Assembly: GCA_902516435.1 (NCBI GenBank)
Contig: CABXYF010000007.1
Location: forward strand, 1-40,104
Direction: 5' to 3'
Length of the DNA stretch: 40,104 bases
Origin: an uncultured Pelagibacteraceae bacterium
Lineage (GTDB): Bacteria; Pseudomonadota; Alphaproteobacteria; Pelagibacterales; Pelagibacteraceae
Positions 9,890-28,203 of the stretch are shown in pieces. The position numbers were made by a program, and so were the translations under genes. Under the pieces are notes generated by a model that saw only the letters and a list, made by a program, of their open reading frames with translations, had not been told where the DNA came from and did no database searches. Position 1 is the stretch's first letter. Each line of letters opens with the position of its first letter.

Positions 9890-11146
9890 ATGCAAAAATA
9901 TTCTATATTTAATTTAGTAAAAAACGCATTTTCAAATCATGAAAACTGGGATTTAGCTTGGAAGGATCCTGCCCCAAAAGAAGAATATGATGTAGTTATT
10001 ATTGGTGGGGGTGGCCATGGGCTTGCTACTGCCTATTATCTCGCAAAAGAACACAATATTACAAAGGTAGCAATTATAGAAAAAGGTTGGATAGGTGGGG
10101 GGAATGTTGGAAGAAACACAACGATAATTAGATCAAACTATATGCATGATGAAAACGCTCTTTTCAGTGAGTTTGGAATGAATTTGTGGAGAAACATGAG
10201 CCAAGATTTAAATTACAATGTGATGTTCTCTCCAAGAGGAATTATAAATCTTGCACACTCAGATGCGCAAATGAATGCCTACGCAAGAAGAGGAAATTCA
10301 ATGAGATTAAATGGTATTGATGCAGTTTTATTGAATCGAGAACAAGTAAAAGAAATAATACCGATGGCAGATTTTTCAGAAAATGTTAGGTTTCCAATTT
10401 TTGGTGGATTAATGCAACCAAGTGCTGGTACAGCAAGACATGATGCTGTTGCTTGGGGTTATGCACGTCAGGCAGACTCTATGGGAGTTGATATAATTCA
10501 AAATTGTGAAGTAACAGGTTTTGATGTAACTGCAGGTAAGATCAATGGAATAAGGACTTCTCGTGGAAATATAAAAACTAAGAAAGTTGGTTTGTGTGTA
10601 GCAGGAAGCACAAATATTTTAGCTGAAAAACTAAATATGACTCTACCAATAGAAACTCATCTTCTCCAAGCATGTGTTTCTGAACCTGTTAAACCAGTTT
10701 TAGATAGAGTAGTGACTTTTGGTGCTGGTCATTTTTATATTAGCCAATCTGATAAAGGTGAAATGGTAATGGGTGGAGATCTTGATGGATATAATAGTTA
10801 TGCTCAAAGAGGAAATTTGCCAACTCTTCAACATGTGTTGAAGGAAGGGATTGCGATGATGCCTTTTCTAAGCAAATTGAAAATGCTTAGAACCTGGGGT
10901 GGCATAATGGATATGTCAATGGATGGTTCACCTATAATCGACAAAACACATATTGATGGTTTGTATTTAAACTGTGGCTGGTGTTATGGAGGTTTTAAAG
11001 CAACACCTGCATCCGGTTGGACATTTGCTCATACAATTGCTCAAGATAGAGTTCATGATCTAAATGCTGGATTTAGTTTAAATCGATTTAGCACAGGCCA
11101 TTTAATTGATGAAAAAGGACTTGGCACGAAGACTTGGATATCTTAA
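9890..11146 (+). CDS. soxB: Sarcosine oxidase subunit beta
   Basis: FAD/FMN-bearing catalytic subunit of heterotetrameric sarcosine oxidase, which turns sarcosine, THF and O2 into glycine, 5,10-methylene-THF and H2O2. 418 aa. The N-terminal dinucleotide loop 'VIIGGGGHGLATAYYLA' (near residue 35) is followed by 'GNVGRNTTIIRSNY'. H184 in 'AGTARHDAVAW' matches the histidine that covalently carries FMN in characterised SoxB. The C-terminus has 'CGWCYGGFKATPASGW'. First gene of soxBDAG; soxD starts at the next base. No clear ribosome-binding site precedes the ATG. Confidence 0.96.
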   Translation: MQKYSIFNLVKNAFSNHENWDLAWKDPAPKEEYDVVIIGGGGHGLATAYYLAKEHNITKVAIIEKGWIGGGNVGRNTTIIRSNYMHDENALFSEFGMNLWRNMSQDLNYNVMFSPRGIINLAHSDAQMNAYARRGNSMRLNGIDAVLLNREQVKEIIPMADFSENVRFPIFGGLMQPSAGTARHDAVAWGYARQADSMGVDIIQNCEVTGFDVTAGKINGIRTSRGNIKTKKVGLCVAGSTNILAEKLNMTLPIETHLLQACVSEPVKPVLDRVVTFGAGHFYISQSDKGEMVMGGDLDGYNSYAQRGNLPTLQHVLKEGIAMMPFLSKLKMLRTWGGIMDMSMDGSPIIDKTHIDGLYLNCGWCYGGFKATPASGWTFAHTIAQDRVHDLNAGFSLNRFSTGHLIDEKGLGTKTWIS

Positions 11147-11416
11147 ATGCTACATATTAAATGTCCTCATTGTGGGATGAGATCTCAAAATGAATTTTCT
11201 TACGGTGGTGATGCTAGCGTAAAAAGACCAGAGCTTAATAAAGAAATCACTGATGAAGAATGGGATAACTTTGTTTATAACCGAAAAAGTTTAAGAGGTA
11301 AGCATTTAGAATTATGGCAACACTTATCTGGATGTAGACAATGGATTAAGGTTGAGAGAGATACTGCTACCCACGAAATATTTAATACTTACAAAGCTGA
11401 AGAGGAAATATCTTAA
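11147..11416 (+). CDS. soxD: Sarcosine oxidase subunit delta
   Basis: Small zinc-binding structural subunit of heterotetrameric sarcosine oxidase, 89 aa. The four zinc ligands known from the Corynebacterium enzyme are present at the same numbering: C6 and C9 in 'IKCPHCG', then H59 and C63 in 'LWQHLSGCRQW'. It abuts soxB directly and its stop overlaps the soxA start by one base, so the subunits are probably translated in coupled fashion. Confidence 0.95.
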   Translation: MLHIKCPHCGMRSQNEFSYGGDASVKRPELNKEITDEEWDNFVYNRKSLRGKHLELWQHLSGCRQWIKVERDTATHEIFNTYKAEEEIS

Positions 11417-14412
11417 TGTCTCAAAATTTTAGATTAGAAAATGGTGGACTAATAAATAGAAATAAAAAGTTATCATTTAAATTTAATGGAAAAAAATACT
11501 TTGGTTACGAAGGAGATACTTTAGCATCAGCTTTAATTGCTAATGGAGTTCATTTAGTAGGCAGAAGCTTTAAATATCATAGACCAAGAGGGTTTTTTGG
11601 AGCAGGTGTAGATGAGCCTTATGCAATGGTTCAATTATATAGAAACAATGAAACAGAGCCCAACGTAAAAGCTACAGAGCAGGAGCTTTTTGAGGGACTA
11701 GAGGCTAAAAGTGTAAATTGTTGGCCTAGTGTAAACTTTGATATTGGTGCGATTAATAATTTTTTAAAAATTTTTCTACCTGCAGGTTTCTATTATAAGA
11801 CTTTCATGTGGCCTAAAAGTTTTTGGTATCGAGTTTATGAACCTTTTATTAGAAAAGCCGCTGGTTTAGGTGTCGTTTCTACAAAACATGATAAAGAAAG
11901 GTATGAGCACAAATATGAATATTGCGATTTATTAATTGCAGGTTCAGGTCCATCAGGTTTAGCAAGTGCATACGCGGCAGCAAAAAATGGTGCGAGAGTA
12001 ATTTTAGCTGAGGATAAACCAAGATTTGGTGGGTCGTTATTAACTAGTGATGTAAATATTGGAAATCAATCAGGTGATGATTGGGCAAATAGTATTATTT
12101 CAGAATTAAAACAAATGCCAAACGTAGTTGTTAAAAATAGATCTCAAGTTTTTGGTTACTATGATCACAATATGTTAGTGATGTCAGAAAAAGTTAGTGA
12201 TCATCTTCCAAAAACAAAAAAATATCATCCGAAACAAAGACTTTGGTATATTAGGGCAAAAGAAGTTTTAATTTCTTCTGGATCAATTGAAAGACCATTA
12301 GTTTTTGGTAATAACGATACTCCTGGTGTTATGTTGTCTTCAGCTGCAAAAGAATATTTAAAAGTATATGGTGTTTTAGTTGGTAAAAATCCATTAGTTT
12401 TTACAAATAACGATAGCGGATATGAGACAGCGATTGAATTTAAAAAAAATGGAATTAACCCTATTATTTTAGACTCTAGGGTAAACCCAAAATCAGAAAT
12501 AATTGATGAAGCTATTAATCTAGGTATTAAAATTCAATTTTCTTATGTTGTTATTGCTGCTCAGGGATATAAAAAAGTAAGATCAGCAGACATCGCAAAA
12601 ATTTCAGATGATAAAAAGAAACTTGGTGCAATTGAAAATATTAAGTGTGACTGTATTTGTGTTTCAGGTTTTTGGACACCAACTATTCATTTAGCCTCAC
12701 AATCAGGGAACAAAACAAAATTTAAAGAGGAAATTGATGCTTTTGTACCTGGAAAGTCTAAGCAGAACGAAACGACCTTAGGTGCTGCTAATGGAGTTTT
12801 TACATTAGAAGAAACTCTACAAAGCTCATTTATAGCAGGACAAGATTTGTCAAAAAAAATAACAAATAATGATAATAAAATTTCTTTACCAAATGTTGTT
12901 GAAAAGAAATCTTCCCAACACGATAAGTTTTGGTGTGTACCTATGCCTGAAGGAAAAAATTATAAAAGATTTTTAGATTTTCAAAATGATGTTGCAGTTT
13001 CAGATATTGAGATAGCTTTAAAAGAGGGTTATCGATCCATAGAGCATGTTAAAAGATATACAACTCTTGGAATGGCAACTGATCAAGGTAAAACAAGTAA
13101 TTTGAATGGACTTCAATTAGTTTCTGATATTGAAAATAAAGTTATACCTGCAGTGGGTCATACTACTTTTAGACCTCCATATACCCCGATATCTATTGGA
13201 GCAATTGTAGGTAGGGAAGTTGGAAAACATTCCAAACCTACTCGTAAATCTCCAATGCATTCATGGCATAAAAACAATAATGCCGTATTTGTTGATGCTG
13301 GAGTTTGGTTAAGACCAAGATATTACAAACAAGGTAAAGAAACTCTTTTTGAGGCATCAAAACGAGAAGCTAAAAATGTTAGAACAAATGTTGGAGTTTG
13401 TGATGTTACTACTTTAGGAAAAATTGATATTAAAGGTCCTGATGCAGCAGAATTTTTAAACAGAGTTTATACAAATGCTTGGTTGAAGTTACCTGTTGGT
13501 AAAGCAAGATATGGAGTGATGCTCAGAGAGGATGGTATAGTTATGGATGATGGAACAACAACCAGGATATCTGAAAATCATTATCATATGACAACTACTA
13601 CAGCTCAAGCAGCAAATGTACTCTCGCATCTAGAGTATTATCTACAACTTGTTTGGCCTGAATTGAACGTCAATGTAGTTTCTACGACTGAACAATGGGC
13701 AGGCGCAGCAATAGCAGGTCCAAAATCTAGAAAGTTATTAGAAAAATTATTTCCCTATAACGATGTTTCAAACGAGGCTCTGCCTTTCATGGGCTATATG
13801 GAGGCAGATCTTTTTGGAGTTAAAGCTAGAATTTTTAGAATTTCATTTTCAGGTGAATTAGCTTACGAGGTAAATGTAAAGTCTGATAATGGAAATTTTA
13901 TGTGGGAAAAAATAATTGAACTAGGTCAGGAATTTGAACTTCAACCTTATGGAACAGAGGCATTATCAACTTTACGAATTGAAATGGGGCATGTTGCTGG
14001 GTCAGAACTTGATGGAAGAACTATTTCTTATGATACATCATTAGAGGGATTAATAAGTAAAAAGAAAGACTTTATTGGTAAAAGATCATTAAATAGAGAG
14101 GCTTTTACCTCTAGCGATAGGCAAAAGATTGTTGGAGTTGTTCCTTTAGATAAAAAAACTAGTATACCTGAGGGTTCTCATTTAGTGAAAGATGCTAAGG
14201 CCCCTCTACCAAATAAAAAATTAGGACACATATCTGCTTCATGCTGGAGTGTAGAGTATGACAATCCTTTCTCTCTAGCGATTTTGAAGGATGGAAAAAA
14301 TATGATTGGAGAAAAATTATTTGTTATGTCTCCATTGAAAAACAAAGTAATTCCAGTTGAAATCGTTTCATCACATTATGTAGATCCAAAGGGAGAAAGA
14401 GTTAGGTCATGA
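11416..14412 (+). CDS. soxA: Sarcosine oxidase subunit alpha
   Basis: Large subunit of heterotetrameric sarcosine oxidase, 998 aa, standard length. Residues ~15-110 form the ferredoxin-like domain ('GVDEPYAMV'). A NAD-binding Rossmann domain starts near residue 171 ('[16 protein letters not shown]'). From about residue 610 to the end runs a GcvT-type folate domain that accepts the methylene group from sarcosine onto THF ('[10 protein letters not shown]', '[17 protein letters not shown]'). It overlaps soxD by one base and soxG by four (ATGA). Confidence 0.96.
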
Positions 14413-14996
14413 GTTTAATATCAGCTTTAGAAAATATTCATCAAAAAGGGCAATTCGGTGATTATGAGGGAAAAAGCGAAAAAAATTTAATTAAAATTTC
14501 AGAAATAAAAAATTTAATTATTTTTCAAATTGTTCAATATAAAAATTCAAATGTTTTATGTGAAGAAGTTAAAATAGATAACTTAAAATTAAGTTCAAAA
14601 GTTCTATCTGTAGTAAGTAATGAAAATACTCGAATTCTTTGGAACGGGCCACGAAATTGGCTTATCATGACTAATACAAAAGAAGTTCTTAGTGAAATTA
14701 GGAAGAATTTTAGTGAAAAGGATTTTGCAGTCACAGATATTTCGCATTCAAAATCAATTATTGAGCTAGAAGGTGATGAATCGAAGGAAGTTTTAAAAAA
14801 AGGATGTCCCTTTAATTTCAATGAATTTTATAAAAATAATTGCCTAAACTCTACATTTAATGGAATGTCAATAATTGTTGACATGATAAATGATAAACCT
14901 GATAAATTTAGAATTTTTTCTCTAAGAAGTTTTGGAGAGTCTCTTTATCATTCATTAACTGACGCATCTCTAGAATTTGGCTATATAGGCAAATAA
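14409..14996 (+). CDS. soxG: Sarcosine oxidase subunit gamma
   Basis: 195 aa, a GcvT-like gamma subunit without catalytic centre that completes the heterotetramer. It is poorly conserved, but '[11 protein letters not shown]' and the C-terminal '[19 protein letters not shown]' fit the family. The ATGA overlap with soxA places it as the last gene of the soxBDAG operon. It ends one base from the convergent EamA gene, and no terminator hairpin is visible between them. Confidence 0.9.
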
Positions 14997-19927: not shown

Positions 19928-20008
19928 AATGTTTATTTCAAAATTAACTTAAAATTTCAATAAAATTAATAGTATTTAAAAAACATATTGATTAATGTTA
20001 AATTTAAT

Positions 20009-20974
20009 ATGAATTATAAAATTGATAACTTGCAATATTGTAATTGGTCTAGAGAAACCTTCGAATTCAATAGATCTGCAGGTCTTGATGCAGTTCACGT
20101 TACAATAGTTTATCATGAAGATTACAATGAGTTTTTAACTGAAATTAAAAAATGGCAAAAACTTTTTAAAGATAATTCAGATATCATATTTCAAGGCTGG
20201 GATTACAGAGATATAGAAAAAGCAAATAAAGAAAAAAAAACAGCAATTTTTTTTGGTTTTCAAAATTGTTCGCCTATTGAGGATGATATTAAATTAGTTG
20301 AAAAAATACATAAATTAGGTTGTCGATTTATGCAGCTTACTTATAACAACCAATCATTATTAGCTACTGGTTGTTATGAAAAAATAGATAGTGGAATTAC
20401 CAATTTTGGTCGTGAAGTTATAAAGGAAATGAATAGAGTGGGAGTGGTAATTGACATGTCGCATTCAGCTGAAAAAAGTACAATTGATGCAATCGAATTA
20501 AGTCAAAAACCGATAGCAATAACTCATGCAAATCCAAATTTTTGGCATGCTGCAAAAAGAAACAAGTCATCTGATTTGTTGAAAATTTTGAGTGATAGTG
20601 GAGGTATACTTGGATTGTCTCTATATCCCCATCATTTAAAGGATAACACAAATTGTACTTTGGAGAGCTTTTGTGAAATGGTTGCTAAGACAGCTGAAAT
20701 AATAAATATAAAACAGATAGGTATCGGGTCTGATCTTTGCCTTCAACAACCTGACAGTATTGTTGAATGGATGAGAAACGGAACATGGTCTAAAAGTACG
20801 AATTTTGGCGAGGGTACAAAAAAAAAACCTGGCTTTCCAAAACAGCCTCACTGGTTTCAGGACGCAAGAGGTTTTTCAAATATTGAAAAAGGACTAAAAA
20901 AAGTTGGATTTTCTGACGAAGAGACAAATGGAATACTTGGAAATAACTGGTACAATTTTTATAAACTAATATAG
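20009..20974 (+). CDS. M19 membrane-dipeptidase-like protein with incomplete metal site
   Basis: 321 aa from the ATG at 20009; a TTG seven codons upstream (19988) is the only other option, and an in-frame TAG lies just before it. The fold is clearly renal-dipeptidase (peptidase M19): 'LGCRFMQLTYNNQS', 'VIDMSHSAEKS', 'PIAITHANPNFWH', 'IGIGSDLC'. M19 enzymes normally bind two zincs using an N-terminal H-x-D, a bridging Glu, two His and an Asp. Here the N-terminus reads 'KIDNLQYCNWSRE' with no H-x-D, and the usual Glu position is Gln ('FGFQNCSPIEDD'); the two His and the Asp remain. It may bind one metal or none, so ordinary dipeptidase activity is doubtful. It leads a cassette with three uncharacterised genes, with a 2-base gap to the next. 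Confidence 0.85.
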   Translation: MNYKIDNLQYCNWSRETFEFNRSAGLDAVHVTIVYHEDYNEFLTEIKKWQKLFKDNSDIIFQGWDYRDIEKANKEKKTAIFFGFQNCSPIEDDIKLVEKIHKLGCRFMQLTYNNQSLLATGCYEKIDSGITNFGREVIKEMNRVGVVIDMSHSAEKSTIDAIELSQKPIAITHANPNFWHAAKRNKSSDLLKILSDSGGILGLSLYPHHLKDNTNCTLESFCEMVAKTAEIINIKQIGIGSDLCLQQPDSIVEWMRNGTWSKSTNFGEGTKKKPGFPKQPHWFQDARGFSNIEKGLKKVGFSDEETNGILGNNWYNFYKLI

Positions 20975-20976
20975 TT

Positions 20977-22638
20977 ATGAGAGTTCAATTAAGAGATCCT
21001 AACACCATAATGAAATTATCAAGATTAGGATCATTTCATCAGTCTAAATTATCTTTTCTAAGAAGCTTTCTTTATGAATTTAAAGACTGGAAATATAAAA
21101 GAGATTTATTCAATTTAAACAAATTTGGTTATGGAGAAGCAGTTTATTCTTTTACAAAAGATAAAAGAACTTATTCGTTAATTTGTTTTGCAAATGAGAT
21201 TAAAGACAATGAAAGATCAGATAGAGTAATTGCTACAAAGTGGGATGCGGCATTTACATTACATGATGGTGTTCCTTCTCAAAAAGATATTGATAGACTT
21301 AAAAATGAAGTACCAAAGCAGGAAGTTGGTAGACTTTCCTTTAAAGAATTAACGTTGTCTAGAGCAAATAAATCTATCCGAGTATTCAATCATGTCGTTG
21401 AAAAATTAAGTGAAGGTAAACAACCAGATTTAGAATTGTTATCAAAGGTTGGATATTTGTATAGAACAACTGCTGTATATGGATCTGGAAAATTTGGCTT
21501 AGCAGATCGTTTTAGGATTAAAAATAGAGAAGAAATTAACGGACCTTTTAGACTTGAAATGATGCTTGTTTATTTAGTCAGACAATTCACATTTGATCAA
21601 GTAAATCATGTTGCTCACAACAAAAACCCCAGTAAAGCTATTCTATTAGATAAAAAGATTTGTAAAAATTTAGGTATTGGTAATTCTACTGGATTAGGTA
21701 TGGCCCCATTTATTGTAAATCATCCAACTTTACTGAATAATTGGGTATTAAGCAGGGAGATAGCTTTAAAAAAAATTAGAGAAATAAAAAAAGTTAAGAA
21801 AAAAGAAAGTAATTTATTTATTGTTTGTATTAAAAAATCTCTAACAAATATTACCAGCTGGAATACTGATAGTGAGTATCAGCAAATTAAAATTAAAAAT
21901 CTATTAAGAGATATAAAAAAATTTATCGCTTTTATCGATAAATCTTTTGATTTTGAAGACGAATATCCTTTTAACAAAATATATCTTTGGCTAGAAAAAG
22001 AAGCTTGTGAGGAGTGTATTGAGTACGTAGTTTCTATAATGATGGAGCCTTATAATGAAATAACTAATTCGTTAGTAAGCCAGATGAGTTCAGAGGAGGA
22101 TAAATATTTCACCATTCCAAGCAATAGGACACTAAATGATTTACAAAATATTATTGAAAAAAAATATTCTAATATTTTGAAAATAAACTTTGAAAATAAA
22201 CAAAATACACAAAACTTTTGGTTTATTTCTAAAAATAAAGAAGAGCCTAGACTAGCTGATAGATTTGAAGAAAGTGGATCTGAATTAGAACAACCACTTG
22301 CAATAGCTAGAGATGTAAAAAAACTTTATGAAAAAATATTAGACACACAGCATAATTCTACTATTGCAGAATTTTTGTTTAAAAATTCTGAGCTTAGACA
22401 TATAGTTAGGAGAGTATTTATTGTTGAAAAATTTCCATACTCTGAGATACAGGATAATACTATAGGTAAAAATATAATGCCTATAGACATGCTAAGGTTA
22501 AAGTTATCATTTTTTGGAGCTTTAAAATTTGATCCACGATCGGATAAATGGTTAAGAATTTGTATGTTTCAAGGAGCGCCATTGCCTAATGAATTAAAAA
22601 ACTATGACGAACAGTGGGTCTATAAAACAAATATATAA
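20977..22638 (+). CDS. Uncharacterised 553-aa protein of the dipeptidase-like/DUF3726 cassette
   Basis: Family not recognised. It is a soluble protein without signal peptide or membrane span. The N-terminal third is mixed alpha/beta with many charged residues ('YGEAVYSFTKDKRTYSL'). The middle has 'YGSGKFGLADRFRIKNREEI' and 'NSTGLGMAPFIVNHP', which read like a conserved catalytic or binding core. A Lys-rich linker follows at about residues 265-285, and then a helical C-terminal half containing a paired cysteine 'EACEECIEYV' (near residue 349). It lies 2 bases after the M19-like gene and 3 bases before the DUF3726 gene, so it is part of one transcript. Its function is unknown. Confidence 0.85.
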   Translation: MRVQLRDPNTIMKLSRLGSFHQSKLSFLRSFLYEFKDWKYKRDLFNLNKFGYGEAVYSFTKDKRTYSLICFANEIKDNERSDRVIATKWDAAFTLHDGVPSQKDIDRLKNEVPKQEVGRLSFKELTLSRANKSIRVFNHVVEKLSEGKQPDLELLSKVGYLYRTTAVYGSGKFGLADRFRIKNREEINGPFRLEMMLVYLVRQFTFDQVNHVAHNKNPSKAILLDKKICKNLGIGNSTGLGMAPFIVNHPTLLNNWVLSREIALKKIREIKKVKKKESNLFIVCIKKSLTNITSWNTDSEYQQIKIKNLLRDIKKFIAFIDKSFDFEDEYPFNKIYLWLEKEACEECIEYVVSIMMEPYNEITNSLVSQMSSEEDKYFTIPSNRTLNDLQNIIEKKYSNILKINFENKQNTQNFWFISKNKEEPRLADRFEESGSELEQPLAIARDVKKLYEKILDTQHNSTIAEFLFKNSELRHIVRRVFIVEKFPYSEIQDNTIGKNIMPIDMLRLKLSFFGALKFDPRSDKWLRICMFQGAPLPNELKNYDEQWVYKTNI

Positions 22639-22641
22639 AAA

Positions 22642-23253
22642 ATGAAATCCTTAAGCGAAATCGAAACTATAGCTAAAAGAGCTTCAAAAGCTGCTGGTTT
22701 TTCCTGGGGAGAGTCTGAGGAAATTGGTAAATGTATAAGACAACTAGAGATGTTTGGTTTACCAGGAATTAAACATCTAAATTCTTATTTTCATGAAAGA
22801 CAAAAAAACATTTATGAGAATTTAGGTCTTATAAAGTTATCAAACTCCTCTTCTTCAAATCCGTATTGTCCAATTATTTTAGGAATTGGATTTTTAGATC
22901 AACTAAAAATAGTTGAAAATTATGAAAAAATTTACTTTTCTAGTATTGCCTACCCAATTATTTTTTTATCATTTTTGAGTAGATCTTCAGAAATTATTGG
23001 AAAAAAAATTAATGTTAAATTTGATCAGAAAGAAATCTTACTAAATTTAAATGTAAATATTTATTCTAATTTTTTAAATCTAGATTTTCCTAAAAGCTCT
23101 AAAAATTTAGAAATAAATATTATTGAAAATAAAGATAACTTTAGTGATGATGAATGGAAAAGTTTATATAAATTATCTGAAAATACTTTTGTAGAAGAGA
23201 CTGATAGTTTAAAAAAAGGTGCCGCGGGAGCAGGTTTAACAGATAATGACTAA
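22642..23253 (+). CDS. DUF3726 family protein
   Basis: 203 aa. The opening 'LSEIETIAKRASKAAGFSWG' followed by 'GESEEIGKCIRQLEMFGLPG' matches what I recall of DUF3726, a family of unknown function found in Rhodobacteraceae and other alphaproteobacteria. The C-terminus ends in 'EETDSLKKGAAGAGLTDND', a small-residue loop near the end that looks conserved. There are no membrane segments. It is embedded in the cassette: 3 bases after the 553-aa gene, and its last 8 bases overlap the start of the zinc-ribbon microprotein. Confidence 0.8.
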   Translation: MKSLSEIETIAKRASKAAGFSWGESEEIGKCIRQLEMFGLPGIKHLNSYFHERQKNIYENLGLIKLSNSSSSNPYCPIILGIGFLDQLKIVENYEKIYFSSIAYPIIFLSFLSRSSEIIGKKINVKFDQKEILLNLNVNIYSNFLNLDFPKSSKNLEINIIENKDNFSDDEWKSLYKLSENTFVEETDSLKKGAAGAGLTDND

Positions 23254-23413
23254 AGATTTAGAAAAAAAAGCTATAGATAGGAAAGACAACGATTTAAATA
23301 ATATCTGTGAAGAGTGTAGAAAAGAGGATGAAACTGTATTTCAAAATCTAATAATGACTGGGTTTAAACTTTGTAAATCTTGCAGGGTCTCTAAAACTAT
23401 TTTCCCAATTTAA
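23246..23413 (+). CDS. 55-aa zinc-ribbon microprotein
   Basis: A short gene easy to miss: ATG at 23246, TAA at 23411-23413, 55 residues. It carries two C-x2-C knuckles, C21-x2-C24 ('NICEECRK') and C43-x2-C46 ('KLCKSCRV'), separated by 18 residues, the layout of a single zinc ribbon. The start overlaps the DUF3726 stop by 8 bases, a typical coupled junction, and the frame uses the same AT-rich codons as its neighbours. It ends with a 4-base overlap of the convergent Yip1 gene. Function unknown; it could be a metal-binding accessory of the cassette proteins, or a nucleic-acid binder. Confidence 0.65.
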   Translation: MTKDLEKKAIDRKDNDLNNICEECRKEDETVFQNLIMTGFKLCKSCRVSKTIFPI

Positions 23414-23955
23414 CTTATTTGATTCATTGGTAGCATATTCATTCTACTCATCACAAAAGAAATAGATAAAAAAGCTATTATAAGAAATGATAAGAGAATA
23501 ATACCGAAAGATTTGAAATTAGATTTAAGGTTTAAAATTTGCTTTGTTGAAATTATTAAACCAGCAAATATCCAAAACTGTGTAAGAAATATTATTGGTA
23601 TCATTAAATCTGGTGTCACTGCAAAAAATCTAAGTAATCCAGGAGCATGAGCATAACCAACTGCTGTTAAAACTTTTTTAAAAGAAACTTTTGTTTGTTT
23701 ATCTGGAAAAAGTTTTACACCAATTACATAAATAAAGATTGCCCACACCAACCAAGTAATAATCGCTGTAAGCCCTGACATAGCAATTGCAGTTTTAATT
23801 ATGGTATTCGCTGCAACTGCACCAGCTATTCCATCCAAAATCATTATTATACCAGCAAAATAAATTGAGGGTTCACCAAAATTTTTATTATCTGAATAAA
23901 GTGTCTTATCTAATTTTATTGATTTAAAAATTATATTTAAAAATTCACCAAACAT
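23410..23955 (-). CDS. Yip1-domain membrane protein
   Basis: 181 aa, about five transmembrane segments, resembling the YIP1 family: a hydrophilic N-terminus of about 30 residues, then a pattern with 'GLTAIITWLVWAIFIYVIG' and a loop holding 'VLTAVGYAHAPGLLRFFAV', where the 'GYA.AP' turn is the usual Yip1 feature. The role in bacteria is unknown. Its start codon shares one base with the stop of the 36-aa membrane peptide gene (TAATG), so the two are translationally coupled. Confidence 0.75.
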   Translation of the reverse strand: MFGEFLNIIFKSIKLDKTLYSDNKNFGEPSIYFAGIIMILDGIAGAVAANTIIKTAIAMSGLTAIITWLVWAIFIYVIGVKLFPDKQTKVSFKKVLTAVGYAHAPGLLRFFAVTPDLMIPIIFLTQFWIFAGLIISTKQILNLKSNFKSFGIILLSFLIIAFLSISFVMSRMNMLPMNQIS

Positions 23956-24107: not shown

Positions 24108-25466
24108 TTAGCCTTTTACAACTTCTCTTGTGTTAGCGTTAAAAGACTCTTTAAATGGAATATCAACTACAACAGCATCCACAGGGGCACCTGGAGTACT
24201 AGAGTATTTCTCTGGTAAATGAACTTTAAATTTAGTTCCAATCTTACCTTTTGGAAATCCATTTGAGTTTAAAGTTCCGTCATATGGCACATATCCCATA
24301 GCAATGTTTTGTTTTTTCTCAGGATGATACCAAGGAGATGTAATAAATCCAACTGGATCACCTCCACCTTCTGGTGAAATTAACCAAAAGTCAGGAGCAT
24401 AATCATCTACTGGCTTTCCTCCAAACTCAAGTCCAACCAATTGAAGTTTATATGGCTTGTTTCCTGCTTGCAGTTCAGCTTTCATTTTCTCTAAAGCTGG
24501 TTTACCAACATAATCTGCTTTTTTATTCCATTCACCTTTACCAGATAATGAAACTTGATAGCCAAGATTGCATTGAAATGGATTATGTTGAGCATCCATG
24601 TCTTGACCCCAGGAAAGTATACCTGCTTGAATTCTTCTATGATGAGCTGGAGCAATAACCATTAAGTTATGAGCTTTTCCTTTTTCAAGAACAGCATTCC
24701 ACATATCATCAGCATATAAAGTAGAATTTCTAAGATATATTTCATAACCAGCTTCTCCTGAGAAACCAGATTGAGAAATAACAACATCTCTTCCACCAAC
24801 TTTCGCTTCAGCTAAACCATAAAAAGGCATATTATCAAAGTCAACATGATCTCCACATAGATCTTTCATCAATGCTTTTGCTTTAGGTCCTTGTATTTGA
24901 ACTGGACTGACATCAATTTCTTCGATAGTACAATTATATCTTCCATCAGCATTGACGCCTTGAAGATACATTCCAATATCAGAATCTGATAAAGAAAACC
25001 AAAATTCATCCTCTGAAATTCTCAAAAGAATTGGATCATTTAATACTCCACCATAAGCATTACATAAAATTACATACCTTGCTCTCATTGGAGAAATTTT
25101 AGTTGCATCTCTTGTAATTACATAATCTGTAAATTTTTCTGCATCAGGACCTTTAACTCTTATTTGTCTTTCAACAGCAACGTTCCACATTGTTACATGA
25201 TTTACAATAGCGTCGTACTCTACCATTGCACCACCATCTTCAGGTTTTACATAACCTCTTGGATGATAAATTCTATTATATACAGTTGCTCTCCAACAAC
25301 CTTCTTTCATTGATAAATGCCAATAAGGGGACTTTCTTACCCTCGTTGAAATTAACATTTCAACTTTAGTTGGCCCACTTTGTCTTAAATTATATGGTAC
25401 TTCTCGATCAGATTGATCAACAGAAGTAAAATGTTTTAATTTAGTATAGTCAAATTCATTAGACAT
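24108..25466 (-). CDS. DmdA-related GcvT-family methyl/aminomethyl transferase
   Basis: 452 aa, folate-binding GcvT fold. Several stretches track the DMSP demethylase DmdA more closely than glycine-cleavage GcvT: 'WNVAVERQIRVKGPDAEKF', 'GGVLNDPILLRISEDEFWFS', 'DSDIGMYLQG', 'VSPVQIQGPKAKAL'. It is longer than DmdA (about 370 aa) because of an N-terminal extension of around 50 residues and extra loops, so it is probably a sister family, not DmdA itself. Expected reaction: moving a methyl group from a methylated substrate to THF. Its ATG overlaps the end of the MetF-like gene by 8 bases, so the two work as a pair. The substrate may be the compound brought in by the upstream binding protein: TMAO, betaine or DMSP-like. 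Confidence 0.8.
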   Translation of the reverse strand: MSNEFDYTKLKHFTSVDQSDREVPYNLRQSGPTKVEMLISTRVRKSPYWHLSMKEGCWRATVYNRIYHPRGYVKPEDGGAMVEYDAIVNHVTMWNVAVERQIRVKGPDAEKFTDYVITRDATKISPMRARYVILCNAYGGVLNDPILLRISEDEFWFSLSDSDIGMYLQGVNADGRYNCTIEEIDVSPVQIQGPKAKALMKDLCGDHVDFDNMPFYGLAEAKVGGRDVVISQSGFSGEAGYEIYLRNSTLYADDMWNAVLEKGKAHNLMVIAPAHHRRIQAGILSWGQDMDAQHNPFQCNLGYQVSLSGKGEWNKKADYVGKPALEKMKAELQAGNKPYKLQLVGLEFGGKPVDDYAPDFWLISPEGGGDPVGFITSPWYHPEKKQNIAMGYVPYDGTLNSNGFPKGKIGTKFKVHLPEKYSSTPGAPVDAVVVDIPFKESFNANTREVVKG

Positions 25467-26187
25467 AACTATTCTCCTTCAACCACTTGTTAGTTTCCTT
25501 CAAGCCGCCGAATGTATAAATGTGGAAGTTATCAGTATGCGATTTAACTTTCCCAATTAAATCATTAGGGTCTTTAGGTTTCAATAAATCTAATGCCTTA
25601 GTAAAATTAGATTTAAGAAAGTTTATGGAATTTTTTGCCCCAACAATATTAGCAAATTTAATCAAGCTAGTTATTTTTAATGGCCCAGTAATTCCTACAT
25701 GTACTGGTACGCTTTGTTTAGAAATAAAATCTATAATAGGCTGAGGATCAAGTAACCATTGAGTTACAATATAATCAGCGTAAGGCTTTTTATCTGTCAT
25801 AGCTTTTTCTAAATCTGGATCGGATATATCAGGACTCCCCTCTGGATGTCCAGCAATTCCTATTTTCATCTTTTCAAAATAACCAGTCTCTAAAAGTTGA
25901 AACGAGCTATCAAATTTTCCAGCTGGCTCTCTTCCGCCCCCAATTATCAAAGCTTGCTTAACTCCACCATCTTTGCATCTATCAACGTAATCTTTAAGTT
26001 CCTTTTCGTCTAGCATAGATCTAGCTGGAAAATGCGGCACAGGATTAAATCCTTTTTTAACAAGCTCAATAGCTTTTGTTGCTGTCTCTTTATAGTCACC
26101 TCCAGGTAACATAGTAATATAAACATCACTTAAAGCTGGGACAGTATCGATGTCAGTTTTTGGTCCTATTTCTAATGAAAATTTCAT
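25459..26187 (-). CDS. Short methylenetetrahydrofolate reductase-like protein
   Basis: 242 aa against about 290 for MetF, in the same TIM-barrel family. Visible: N-terminal 'FSLEIGPKTD' with the glutamate where MetF has its catalytic Glu, 'ALIIGGGREPAG', 'IGIAGHPEGSP' (the MetF signature region), and 'YIVTQWLLDP' with a Gln-Trp near the folate site. Short MetF-like proteins often accompany THF-dependent demethylases; here it would oxidise methyl-THF to methylene-THF. It overlaps the GcvT-like gene by 8 bases and lies 60 bases after the permease. It is less likely to be the cell's biosynthetic MetF. Confidence 0.78.
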   Translation of the reverse strand: MKFSLEIGPKTDIDTVPALSDVYITMLPGGDYKETATKAIELVKKGFNPVPHFPARSMLDEKELKDYVDRCKDGGVKQALIIGGGREPAGKFDSSFQLLETGYFEKMKIGIAGHPEGSPDISDPDLEKAMTDKKPYADYIVTQWLLDPQPIIDFISKQSVPVHVGITGPLKITSLIKFANIVGAKNSINFLKSNFTKALDLLKPKDPNDLIGKVKSHTDNFHIYTFGGLKETNKWLKENSYV

Positions 26188-26247: not shown

Positions 26248-27135
26248 CTATTTTTTAAGCTGACCTCGGTGCTTTTGAATTCTCTGGCCGTACTGTTGAG
26301 TAACTCTATCAAAGATTATCGCAAGTGCTACTATAGCAAGACCGTTCATCATACCAAGAGCGAGATATTGGTTTGAAATTGCTTGTAAAATAGGCACTCC
26401 TAGGCCTCTGACACCAATCATCGATGCTATAACGACCATAGCCAAAGCCATCATAATTGTTTGGTTAATACCCGCAAAGATTGTCGGTAAAGAAAGAGGA
26501 ATTTGAACAGATCTTAGTTTCTGCATTGGTGTTGCTCCAAAAGCTTCACTTGCCTCTAACGTTTCTTTGTCAACTTCTCTTATTCCAAGATTTGTGAGTC
26601 TTACTATAGGTGGAAGGGCATAAATACACACCGCTAGCAGACCTGGCACTTTTCCAATACCAAGAAGCATAATTATTGGAATTAAATAAACGAAACTTGG
26701 AATAGTTTGCATCATGTCCAAAACGGGTAAAATTGTCTTCTCTGCTCTTGATGATTTAGACATTAAAACTCCGATTGGTATTCCTACTACTATGCAAACT
26801 AACGTTGAAACAGATATTATGGCAACTGTAGCCATACAATTTTTCCACATTCCAAAATATCCTATAACCAAGAAACATGCTATGGTTCCAACAACAAGTT
26901 TAATACTTCTAGATCCAATCCATGCAAGCAATGCAAAAATTCCTATAACTATGGGCCACGGACTACTAACTAATAATTTTTCTAACCAAATTAAAAAATA
27001 TAAAAGGGGGTCAAAAAAACCCTCTATTGCATCTCCATATGCTCTTGAAAATTCTTTAAAACTAAAATCAATACTCTTCTTTAGCTCTCTTAACGCCGTT
27101 CTATCCATTACAGGGATTTTGCTAAAGAATTCCAT
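26248..27135 (-). CDS. Betaine/TMAO-type ABC transporter permease
   Basis: 295 aa ProW/OpuAB-like inner-membrane permease with a single BPD-transporter domain at about residues 95-280. It contains 'PVLDMMQTIPSFVYLIP' and the ATPase-docking loop 'EASEAFGATPMQKLRSVQIP'. The N-terminus has a hydrophilic stretch before the first span, as in ProW. It follows the binding-protein gene with a hairpin between them and precedes the MetF-like gene. No ATPase gene is in this cluster, so it must use one encoded elsewhere, possibly the ProV-type ATPase at the left edge of the window. Confidence 0.92.
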   Translation of the reverse strand: MEFFSKIPVMDRTALRELKKSIDFSFKEFSRAYGDAIEGFFDPLLYFLIWLEKLLVSSPWPIVIGIFALLAWIGSRSIKLVVGTIACFLVIGYFGMWKNCMATVAIISVSTLVCIVVGIPIGVLMSKSSRAEKTILPVLDMMQTIPSFVYLIPIIMLLGIGKVPGLLAVCIYALPPIVRLTNLGIREVDKETLEASEAFGATPMQKLRSVQIPLSLPTIFAGINQTIMMALAMVVIASMIGVRGLGVPILQAISNQYLALGMMNGLAIVALAIIFDRVTQQYGQRIQKHRGQLKK

Positions 27136-27153
27136 AAATCTTTTTTATTTCAA

Positions 27154-27179
27154 TCGAACCCGTTTTACAACGGGTTCGA
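27154..27179 (-). other. Strong 11-bp hairpin between binding-protein and permease genes
   Basis: TCGAACCCGTT (27154-27164) and AACGGGTTCGA (27169-27179) pair perfectly over a 4-base loop, in a 57-base gap that starts just after the binding-protein stop. No T-run follows on the minus strand. Such stems after binding-protein genes usually protect the upstream mRNA or partly stop transcription, so that the binding protein is made in excess over the permease. Confidence 0.75.
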
Positions 27180-27192
27180 CAATTTTATTTAA

Positions 27193-28203
27193 TTAAAGTG
27201 CTTTTTTGATTTTTTTAGCAGCTGAACTTGAAACCCACTTAGTCCACACATCTTCTTGTGTTTTTAAGAATTCAATAGCAGCATCTGCACCTTCAGCTTG
27301 GTTTTCACCCATCCAAACTAACATACCATTCATGACTGGTCCTGGATAAGTTCTTTTTTCAAGATACTTCATACCTTCTTTACCAGCTGTATTTTTGTAA
27401 TTGTCAGTTGCAACAGTGTATACTTCAGATTTTACCCACGAAGATTTTAAAGGATTAGCACATTCTTGCTCTGGTTTTGACAAACAGTTATCCCAGTTAT
27501 CTTTACCAGCATACTCACCCATATCTACGGCTTGCATGTTATATTTACCAATAATAGCAGTTGGCGACCAGTAATAACCAAACCAGTTTTCACCTCTTTC
27601 AGCAGCTTTTGCTATAGAACCATCTAATCCTGCAGCAGAACCTGTCTCAACTATCATCCATCCTTTAGCTTCCATTTCCCAAGCTCTAAAATGGTTTCTG
27701 TTACTTAATTCACAGTTCCATCCTGGAGGGCAAATATGAAACCCACCTTTTGAAGGATCTTCTGGATGTGGAAATAGATCAGGTCTTTTTAAAATTGCAT
27801 CTGCAGTTGTTAATTCTGGATGCTTTTCTAAAGTTGCAGGTAGTACCCACCAACCTTCTCCAAGACCAGTGATTGGAGCTTTGTTAATTGAATGAAGTTT
27901 ACCTTCAGCAACTGCTGCTTCTAACTCAACTTTAGCAGCATTAGCCCAAAATTCAGGGGCAATATCTGGCTCACCTTTTTCTTGCATTGATGTAAATGTA
28001 GGCATTGTTGAACCAGGAACTAATTCAACGGAACATCCATAACCTTCTTCAAGTATAATCTTATCTACTTCAGCCATGAAGTTTGCTGATGCCCAGTTCA
28101 TATTAGCAATTGTTAATTTTCCACAAGCCGCGTTAGCTACACTTCCAAAAGAAGTTAAACCAAACACTAAAGCGAGTGAAAGCAGTATTCTTTTAATTTT
28201 CAT
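27193..28203 (-). CDS. Periplasmic binding protein, TmoX/OpuAC-like (TMAO or betaine)
   Basis: 336 aa secreted substrate-binding protein. Signal peptide at residues 1-25, with likely cleavage after 'SVANA'. The mature protein is OpuAC/ProX-type: 'IANMNWASANFMAEV', 'DIAPEFWANAA', 'EGWWVLPATLEKHPE', 'CPPGWNCELSNRNHF', 'WFGYYWSPTAIIGKY'. Several Trp/Tyr residues suit an aromatic box for a quaternary amine or TMAO; the paired cysteines in the 'CPPGWNC' loop resemble TmoX, the TMAO-specific form. GGGAG precedes the ATG at good spacing. First gene of the minus-strand operon, divergent from the Rieske operon, and expected to be highly expressed. Confidence 0.88.
   Translation of the reverse strand: MKIKRILLSLALVFGLTSFGSVANAACGKLTIANMNWASANFMAEVDKIILEEGYGCSVELVPGSTMPTFTSMQEKGEPDIAPEFWANAAKVELEAAVAEGKLHSINKAPITGLGEGWWVLPATLEKHPELTTADAILKRPDLFPHPEDPSKGGFHICPPGWNCELSNRNHFRAWEMEAKGWMIVETGSAAGLDGSIAKAAERGENWFGYYWSPTAIIGKYNMQAVDMGEYAGKDNWDNCLSKPEQECANPLKSSWVKSEVYTVATDNYKNTAGKEGMKYLEKRTYPGPVMNGMLVWMGENQAEGADAAIEFLKTQEDVWTKWVSSSAAKKIKKAL

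Follow-up and report, generated by a model that had tools for sequence, protein, structure and literature searches.

Homarine (N-methylpicolinate) is an abundant plankton metabolite. An operon for its breakdown, homABCDER, is said to consist of five genes and a regulator, to occur in Rhodobacterales, SAR11 and SAR116, and to yield N-methylglutamate; a literature search by that name gave no lead. For trigonelline, the tgnABCDE pathway of Acinetobacter baylyi (Perchat et al. 2018) reportedly comprises the opening of a N-methylated pyridine carboxylate ring, an aldehyde dehydrogenase (ALDH) and a N-methylformamide hydrolase. In this study, we analyzed a set of three genes, encoding an M19-like amidohydrolase, a 553-residue protein (hereafter P553) and a DUF3726 protein, in a SAR11 (Pelagibacteraceae) genome, the assembly of which (GCA_902516435.1) is 79% complete. 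The set lies in a stretch of 40,104 nucleotides (hereafter the window; contig CABXYF010000007.1, positions 1 to 40,104). It is a real, conserved catabolic core, and with a probability of about 0.85 it forms the central part of a catabolic module for a betaine-type compound.

The likeness to the homarine operon is one of taxon range (Rhodobacterales and SAR11), of a N-methylglutamate dehydrogenase taking part and of a plausible gene count (five plus a regulator). We infer that the core most likely belongs to this recently published pathway. In the trigonelline pathway the ring is opened by the TgnA/TgnB oxygenase, whereas in the scheme proposed below this step would fall to P553 and DUF3726. 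Neither of the two proteins matched an oxygenase family in Pfam; no search of the genome aimed at tgn genes was made. It has been argued that TgnAB is unsuitable for homarine (PMC8269262), and another ring-opening enzyme would therefore be needed. N-methylglutamate dehydrogenase is reported to have a part in the breakdown of homarine (PMC13390433, which cites Nat Microbiol 2026 11:1531).

The initial annotation had described a cassette of four genes, the fourth encoding a 55-residue zinc-ribbon protein (Table 1). The coordinates of the four open reading frames (ORFs) and their junctions (2 bases, 3 bases and an 8-base overlap) were reproduced exactly. The M19-like ORF was counted from its ATG, while the program-made ORF list begins at a TTG at 19988. 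The ratios of nonsynonymous to synonymous substitution (dN/dS) against close relatives were 0.05-0.21 for the M19-like, P553 and DUF3726 genes; for the 55-aa gene they were 0.15-0.36. These values show that all four are real genes under selection. A search of NCBIfam with all four proteins gave no lead. The 80 best relatives of P553 among genome contigs were all from Pelagibacteraceae (identity 67-92%), and the order of purE, the cassette block and a membrane-protein gene was common to nearly all of their records.

Table 1. Features of the window discussed in the text.
Feature	Coordinates	Strand	Remarks
M19-like amidohydrolase, 321 aa	20009..20974	+	PF01244, best PDB match 2i5g; core member
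P553, 553 aa	20977..22638	+	Without sequence match in Pfam, NCBIfam or PDB; core member and candidate key enzyme
DUF3726 protein, 203 aa	22642..23253	+	PF12525; shortened Ldh_2-type paralogue; core member
55-aa CxxC...CxxC protein	23246..23413	+	Conserved SAR11 gene, outside the cassette
Sarcosine-oxidase-type operon (soxB, soxA, soxG seen)	9890..14996	+	TIGR01373/TIGR01372
ProW/ProX-type betaine ABC permease and binding protein	26248..28203	-	Relatives precede the cassette in L221 and L119

A survey of 289 alphaproteobacterial genomes detected P553 in 39 and DUF3726 in 32. In every one of these 32 genomes the DUF3726 gene directly follows P553 in the same orientation. An M19-like gene is located within 3 kb at 34 of the 41 P553 places. 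P553 was also found in 29 of 398 genomes surveyed across the phylum, and its relatives reach other classes of the phylum, Caballeronia and a haloarchaeal plasmid. The conserved set is M19-P553-DUF3726, three genes and not four, and it is widely conserved in ocean and soil bacteria. The survey bore out the earlier suggestion of a system conserved in Alphaproteobacteria, Rhodobacteraceae among them, and relatives of the system reach further, into other proteobacteria and one haloarchaeon. The initial annotation had also proposed a gene-neighbourhood survey, in which a failure of the four genes to co-occur would speak against a cassette. The three core genes do co-occur; the 55-aa gene does not belong with them, so that the cassette had been drawn one gene too wide.

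Second P553-DUF3726-M19 sets with different neighbours were observed in L159 (genome G154), in L184 (genome G451) and on pSymB of Sinorhizobium meliloti (L036). Neither an ALDH nor a BCCT gene adjoins the second Roseobacter copies, and the Sinorhizobium set is accompanied by polyamine-type ABC genes. The haloarchaeal Natrinema plasmid pNVE500 (L037) carries genes for ALDH, for P553, for a DUF3726-like protein in which a score with Ldh_2 persists, and for BCCT. This arrangement suggests transfer across domains.

The 55-aa gene was rejected as a member of the cassette because it is confined to SAR11, occurs without the cassette and stays against the membrane-protein gene whether or not the cassette is present. 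The sole Pfam match of its product was a sub-threshold ZZ finger, and no such gene was found outside SAR11 in the survey of alphaproteobacterial genomes. Among 99 Pelagibacteraceae genomes, 59 carry the 55-aa gene, 30 carry P553 and 25 carry both. The 55-aa gene is thus about twice as common as P553 and occurs without it in 34 genomes; the association is above chance but loose (Fisher p 0.002). In one genome (G703), purE, the 55-aa gene, the membrane-protein gene and a GcvT-like gene are consecutive with no cassette in between. In two others (G669 and G656), the cassette is far from the 55-aa gene, which still adjoins its membrane-protein partner. The 8-base overlap with DUF3726 was present in all 74 loci having both genes, one of them being scored as -14 through the choice of start. 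Since the 55-aa gene is separable from the cassette, the overlap reflects a single insertion point shared by descent within a clade, the cassette happening to sit directly upstream.

In the window, the 55-aa gene lies tail to tail with the gene of the 181-aa membrane protein, with a 4-base overlap (23246-23955). SAR11 genomes that do not have the cassette retain this pair, and the two genes may therefore form a unit of their own. In another SAR11 locus (L113, 12541-16474), three genes (230, 847 and 222 aa) lie between them, which points to a variable site.

The M19-like protein matched PF01244 (Peptidase_M19; 1.7e-69) over profile positions 36-316 of 319. Its best sequence match in the PDB was 2i5g (1e-55), PA5396 of Pseudomonas aeruginosa, to whose subfamily it belongs. 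The metal site was compared with that of human renal dipeptidase (HxD, bridging Glu125, His198 and His219), E125 and H152 being counted off the alignment. In all of the 84 M19-like sequences compared, NLQYCNW stands in the HxD region and Gln85 takes the place of Glu125. His152 of renal dipeptidase corresponds to Tyr112 in the M19-like protein. In the numbering of the M19-like protein, His152, His173, Arg184 and Asp242 are kept across the 84 sequences, except for one with Asp at 152. The protein therefore belongs to the family by sequence match but does not have the binuclear metal site, as had been noticed earlier: HxD and the glutamate are gone, and two histidines, an arginine and an aspartate are retained. 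The nearest solved structure, 2i5g, shares this loss. Since the same pattern runs through the compared subfamily, the change is a subfamily trait and not decay. We favour the reading that the protein would be a mononuclear hydrolase of a non-peptide amide.

The DUF3726 protein matched PF12525 (3.5e-21) with 75.3 bits against a gathering cut-off of 22.1. Its AlphaFold (AF2) model (pLDDT 86.8) matched 15 Ldh_2 entries with Z-scores of 8.6-10.2 over 155-179 residues, among them ureidoglycolate dehydrogenase, YiaK and delta1-piperideine-2-carboxylate reductase; the next unrelated row scored 3.8. Foldseek gave the Ldh_2 matches probabilities of up to 1.00, with E-values only of 0.01 and above. In a single pairwise test, hhalign of the N-terminal parts yielded a probability of 81 and an E-value of 1.2e-5. 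Moreover, a relative from the same phylum outside the Alphaproteobacteria (L178) exceeds the gathering cut-offs of both DUF3726 and Ldh_2, and a haloarchaeal relative scores 4.8e-9 with Ldh_2, just short of the cut-off. A HMMER search with a Ldh_2 profile built from neighbour proteins did not recover DUF3726, and the homology therefore rests on the fold, hhalign and the double Pfam match. A PDB sequence search with the DUF3726 profile gave no useful match, and a literature search on DUF3726 gave no lead.

DUF3726 thus shares its fold over about 155-179 residues with the Ldh_2 family (DpkA, AllD, YiaK; PF02615), but is about 130 residues shorter, and the catalytic and cofactor motifs are nearly absent. 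The SHG, GTNP and GxKGxG motifs are present in 14 of the 15 Ldh neighbours, but only in 1, 1 and 0 of 38 DUF3726 proteins, respectively. DUF3726 is a shortened paralogue of Ldh_2 (the malate/lactate/piperideine-2-carboxylate reductase family), an origin that is new here. Because it is shorter and does not have these motifs, it is probably no dehydrogenase. As a reduced Ldh_2 relative, it would be at most a pseudo-enzyme partner of P553. Its C-terminal tail, GAGAGLTDND, hardly varies, although the model shows it as disordered. This combination suggests that the tail docks into a partner; P553 would be the obvious candidate.

P553 had no match in Pfam, NCBIfam or the PDB sequences, profile search included. 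Its AF2 model has a pLDDT of 73.9 and a pTM of 0.79, the underlying alignment being shallow and restricted to SAR11. The least confident loops of the model hold some of the most conserved motifs. The fold search gave no convincing match (best Z 3.9), which in a model of moderate quality does not imply a novel fold. 

The genes around the core suggest its function. Annotated plasmids from Rhodobacteraceae and Rhizobiales (Phaeobacter, Sulfitobacter, Shinella and Aminobacter) carry the core genes together with LysR, ALDH, BCCT or glycine-betaine ABC transporter and Ldh-family oxidoreductase genes. In Phaeobacter, sarcosine oxidase genes are located just 5' of the cassette, and Rieske oxygenase and other FAD oxidoreductase genes adjoin it. 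A streamlined alphaproteobacterium with a genome of 1.4 Mb (L170) has proX-proW-proV-ALDH-M19-P553-DUF3726 on one strand, with Ldh_2 divergent beside them, so that only the regulator is missing. In the SAR11 genomes L221 and L119, proX-proW lie directly upstream of the cassette on the same strand. These neighbours indicate the import and breakdown of a betaine. The top scores of the cassette ALDH were with 2,5-dioxovalerate and alpha-ketoglutarate-semialdehyde dehydrogenase models, all under cut-off; a C5 semialdehyde is therefore the likely substrate of this enzyme. DpkA, a member of Ldh_2, uses 2-oxoacids and methylamine to form N-methyl amino acids (PMC8070496). The combination of a C5-type ALDH with a DpkA-type Ldh_2 enzyme suggests a product like N-methylglutamate. 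We therefore lean slightly towards homarine as the specific substrate and N-methylglutamate as the product.

The following sequence of steps would be consistent with these genes. Homarine would be imported by the ProXWV or BCCT transporter, and P553, with DUF3726 as its obligate partner, would cleave the N-methylpyridinium ring at C5-C6 to give an N-formyl-N-methyl-amino C5 semialdehyde. The ALDH, a relative of alpha-ketoglutarate-semialdehyde dehydrogenase, would oxidise this semialdehyde, and the M19-like hydrolase would remove formate from the N-methylformamide. The resulting N-methylimine might then be reduced to N-methylglutamate by the DpkA-type Ldh_2 enzyme. Finally, a tetrameric enzyme of the sarcosine oxidase type (N-methylglutamate dehydrogenase) would produce glutamate and a C1 unit. 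In SAR11, no more than the three central genes are kept together; the remaining steps would be carried out by genes elsewhere.

Several facts weigh against this proposal. Neither a recognised cofactor motif nor a recognised fold was found in P553, and ring cleavage by P553 is therefore a guess. SAR11 cassettes have no adjoining ALDH, Ldh_2 or LysR genes, so that the present locus, with only three genes together, differs from the homarine operon. For ALDH and Ldh_2, the best matches at other places in this genome, at its 79% completeness, reach only 28-35% identity. Among 47 loci outside SAR11, a simple ORF clustering, which undercounts, found ALDH at 23, LysR at 17 and Ldh_2 at 15. A search of the R. 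pomeroyi megaplasmid, which covered the megaplasmid only, found no P553. In addition, since the Sinorhizobium set and a second Roseobacter copy differ in their neighbours, the P553 family probably serves several substrates, and such paralogues probably act on other betaines. It is conceivable, though doubtful, that P553 founds a new enzyme class of unknown fold. Such an enzyme, which carries no flavin or metal oxygenase signature that can be recognised, would open the N-methylpyridinium ring as an obligate complex with DUF3726, a pseudo-dehydrogenase of common ancestry with the later-acting Ldh_2 enzyme.

Another interpretation is that the same catabolic module serves a different substrate, which could be stachydrine, trigonelline, carnitine, dimethylglycine or some further betaine or N-methyl compound. 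P553 would then attack a C-N bond, and its product would be hydrolysed by the M19-like protein. The Rieske oxygenase, FAD oxidoreductase and sarcosine oxidase genes beside the Phaeobacter copies are consistent with this, as are the divergent paralogues of P553 that occur in Sinorhizobium and in a haloarchaeon. DgcAB are flavin/Fe-S demethylases. An M19-type gene also occurs in this N-methyl amino acid catabolism: in Vibrio and in P. aeruginosa, a predicted dipeptidase gene (pepD) precedes dgcAB in the dimethylglycine cluster (PMC12093977). The nearest solved structure of the M19 type, 2i5g, is likewise a P. aeruginosa protein (PA5396). However, no P553 or DUF3726 is described for the dgcAB set, and a C5-type ALDH with a Ldh_2 imine reductase suits an N-methylglutamate-type product better than the demethylation of a saturated betaine. 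We consider a substrate other than homarine rather unlikely.

The initial annotation had regarded the locus as an enzyme, which could be the M19-like protein or P553, with DUF3726 and the zinc-ribbon protein as maturing assembly factors. The constant association of DUF3726 with P553 (32/32) and its loss of the Ldh_2 catalytic motifs are what would be expected of a non-catalytic partner. However, many SAR11 genomes have the zinc-ribbon gene at another place, and it is also found where the other genes are absent; moreover, the neighbours are catabolic and transport genes rather than genes for cofactor maturation. It was therefore dropped as the main interpretation and is considered improbable. 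A true dipeptidase or peptide-processing operon, as the automatic annotation "membrane dipeptidase" implies and the Pfam M19 match might suggest, was dismissed as very improbable, since the HxD and Glu ligands are replaced in every compared sequence and neither peptide transporters nor further peptidases recur in the neighbourhoods.

For homarine catabolism, two other features of the window may be relevant. The sarcosine-oxidase-type operon is a candidate N-methylglutamate dehydrogenase or sarcosine oxidase and might provide the downstream step. A second complete soxBDAG-type operon is present in the same genome (G000:C12, 4150-9235), its soxB being about 58% identical to the copy in the window. 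Two such operons are known in SAR11, one of which has been proposed to encode N-methylglutamate dehydrogenase, and their assignment is a long-standing question (PMC3160333). The ProW/ProX-type pair is a possible importer. Between the membrane-protein gene and this pair (24108-26187), we also observed genes for a GcvT/DmdA-like protein (452 aa, under the DMSP demethylase cut-off) and for a weak relative of methylenetetrahydrofolate reductase (242 aa). This pair is conserved in SAR11 beside the cassette locus, and its substrate is uncertain.

The exclusion of the 55-aa microprotein from the set is new, and the automatic label "membrane dipeptidase" is corrected for the M19-like subfamily. The kinship between DUF3726 and Ldh_2 offers a basis from which the structure of the P553 complex can be approached. 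If the assignment is true, P553, DUF3726 and the M19 subfamily, three families previously without a function, would each have a testable one, and the three-gene core would mark consumers of a large, poorly tracked pool of carbon and nitrogen.

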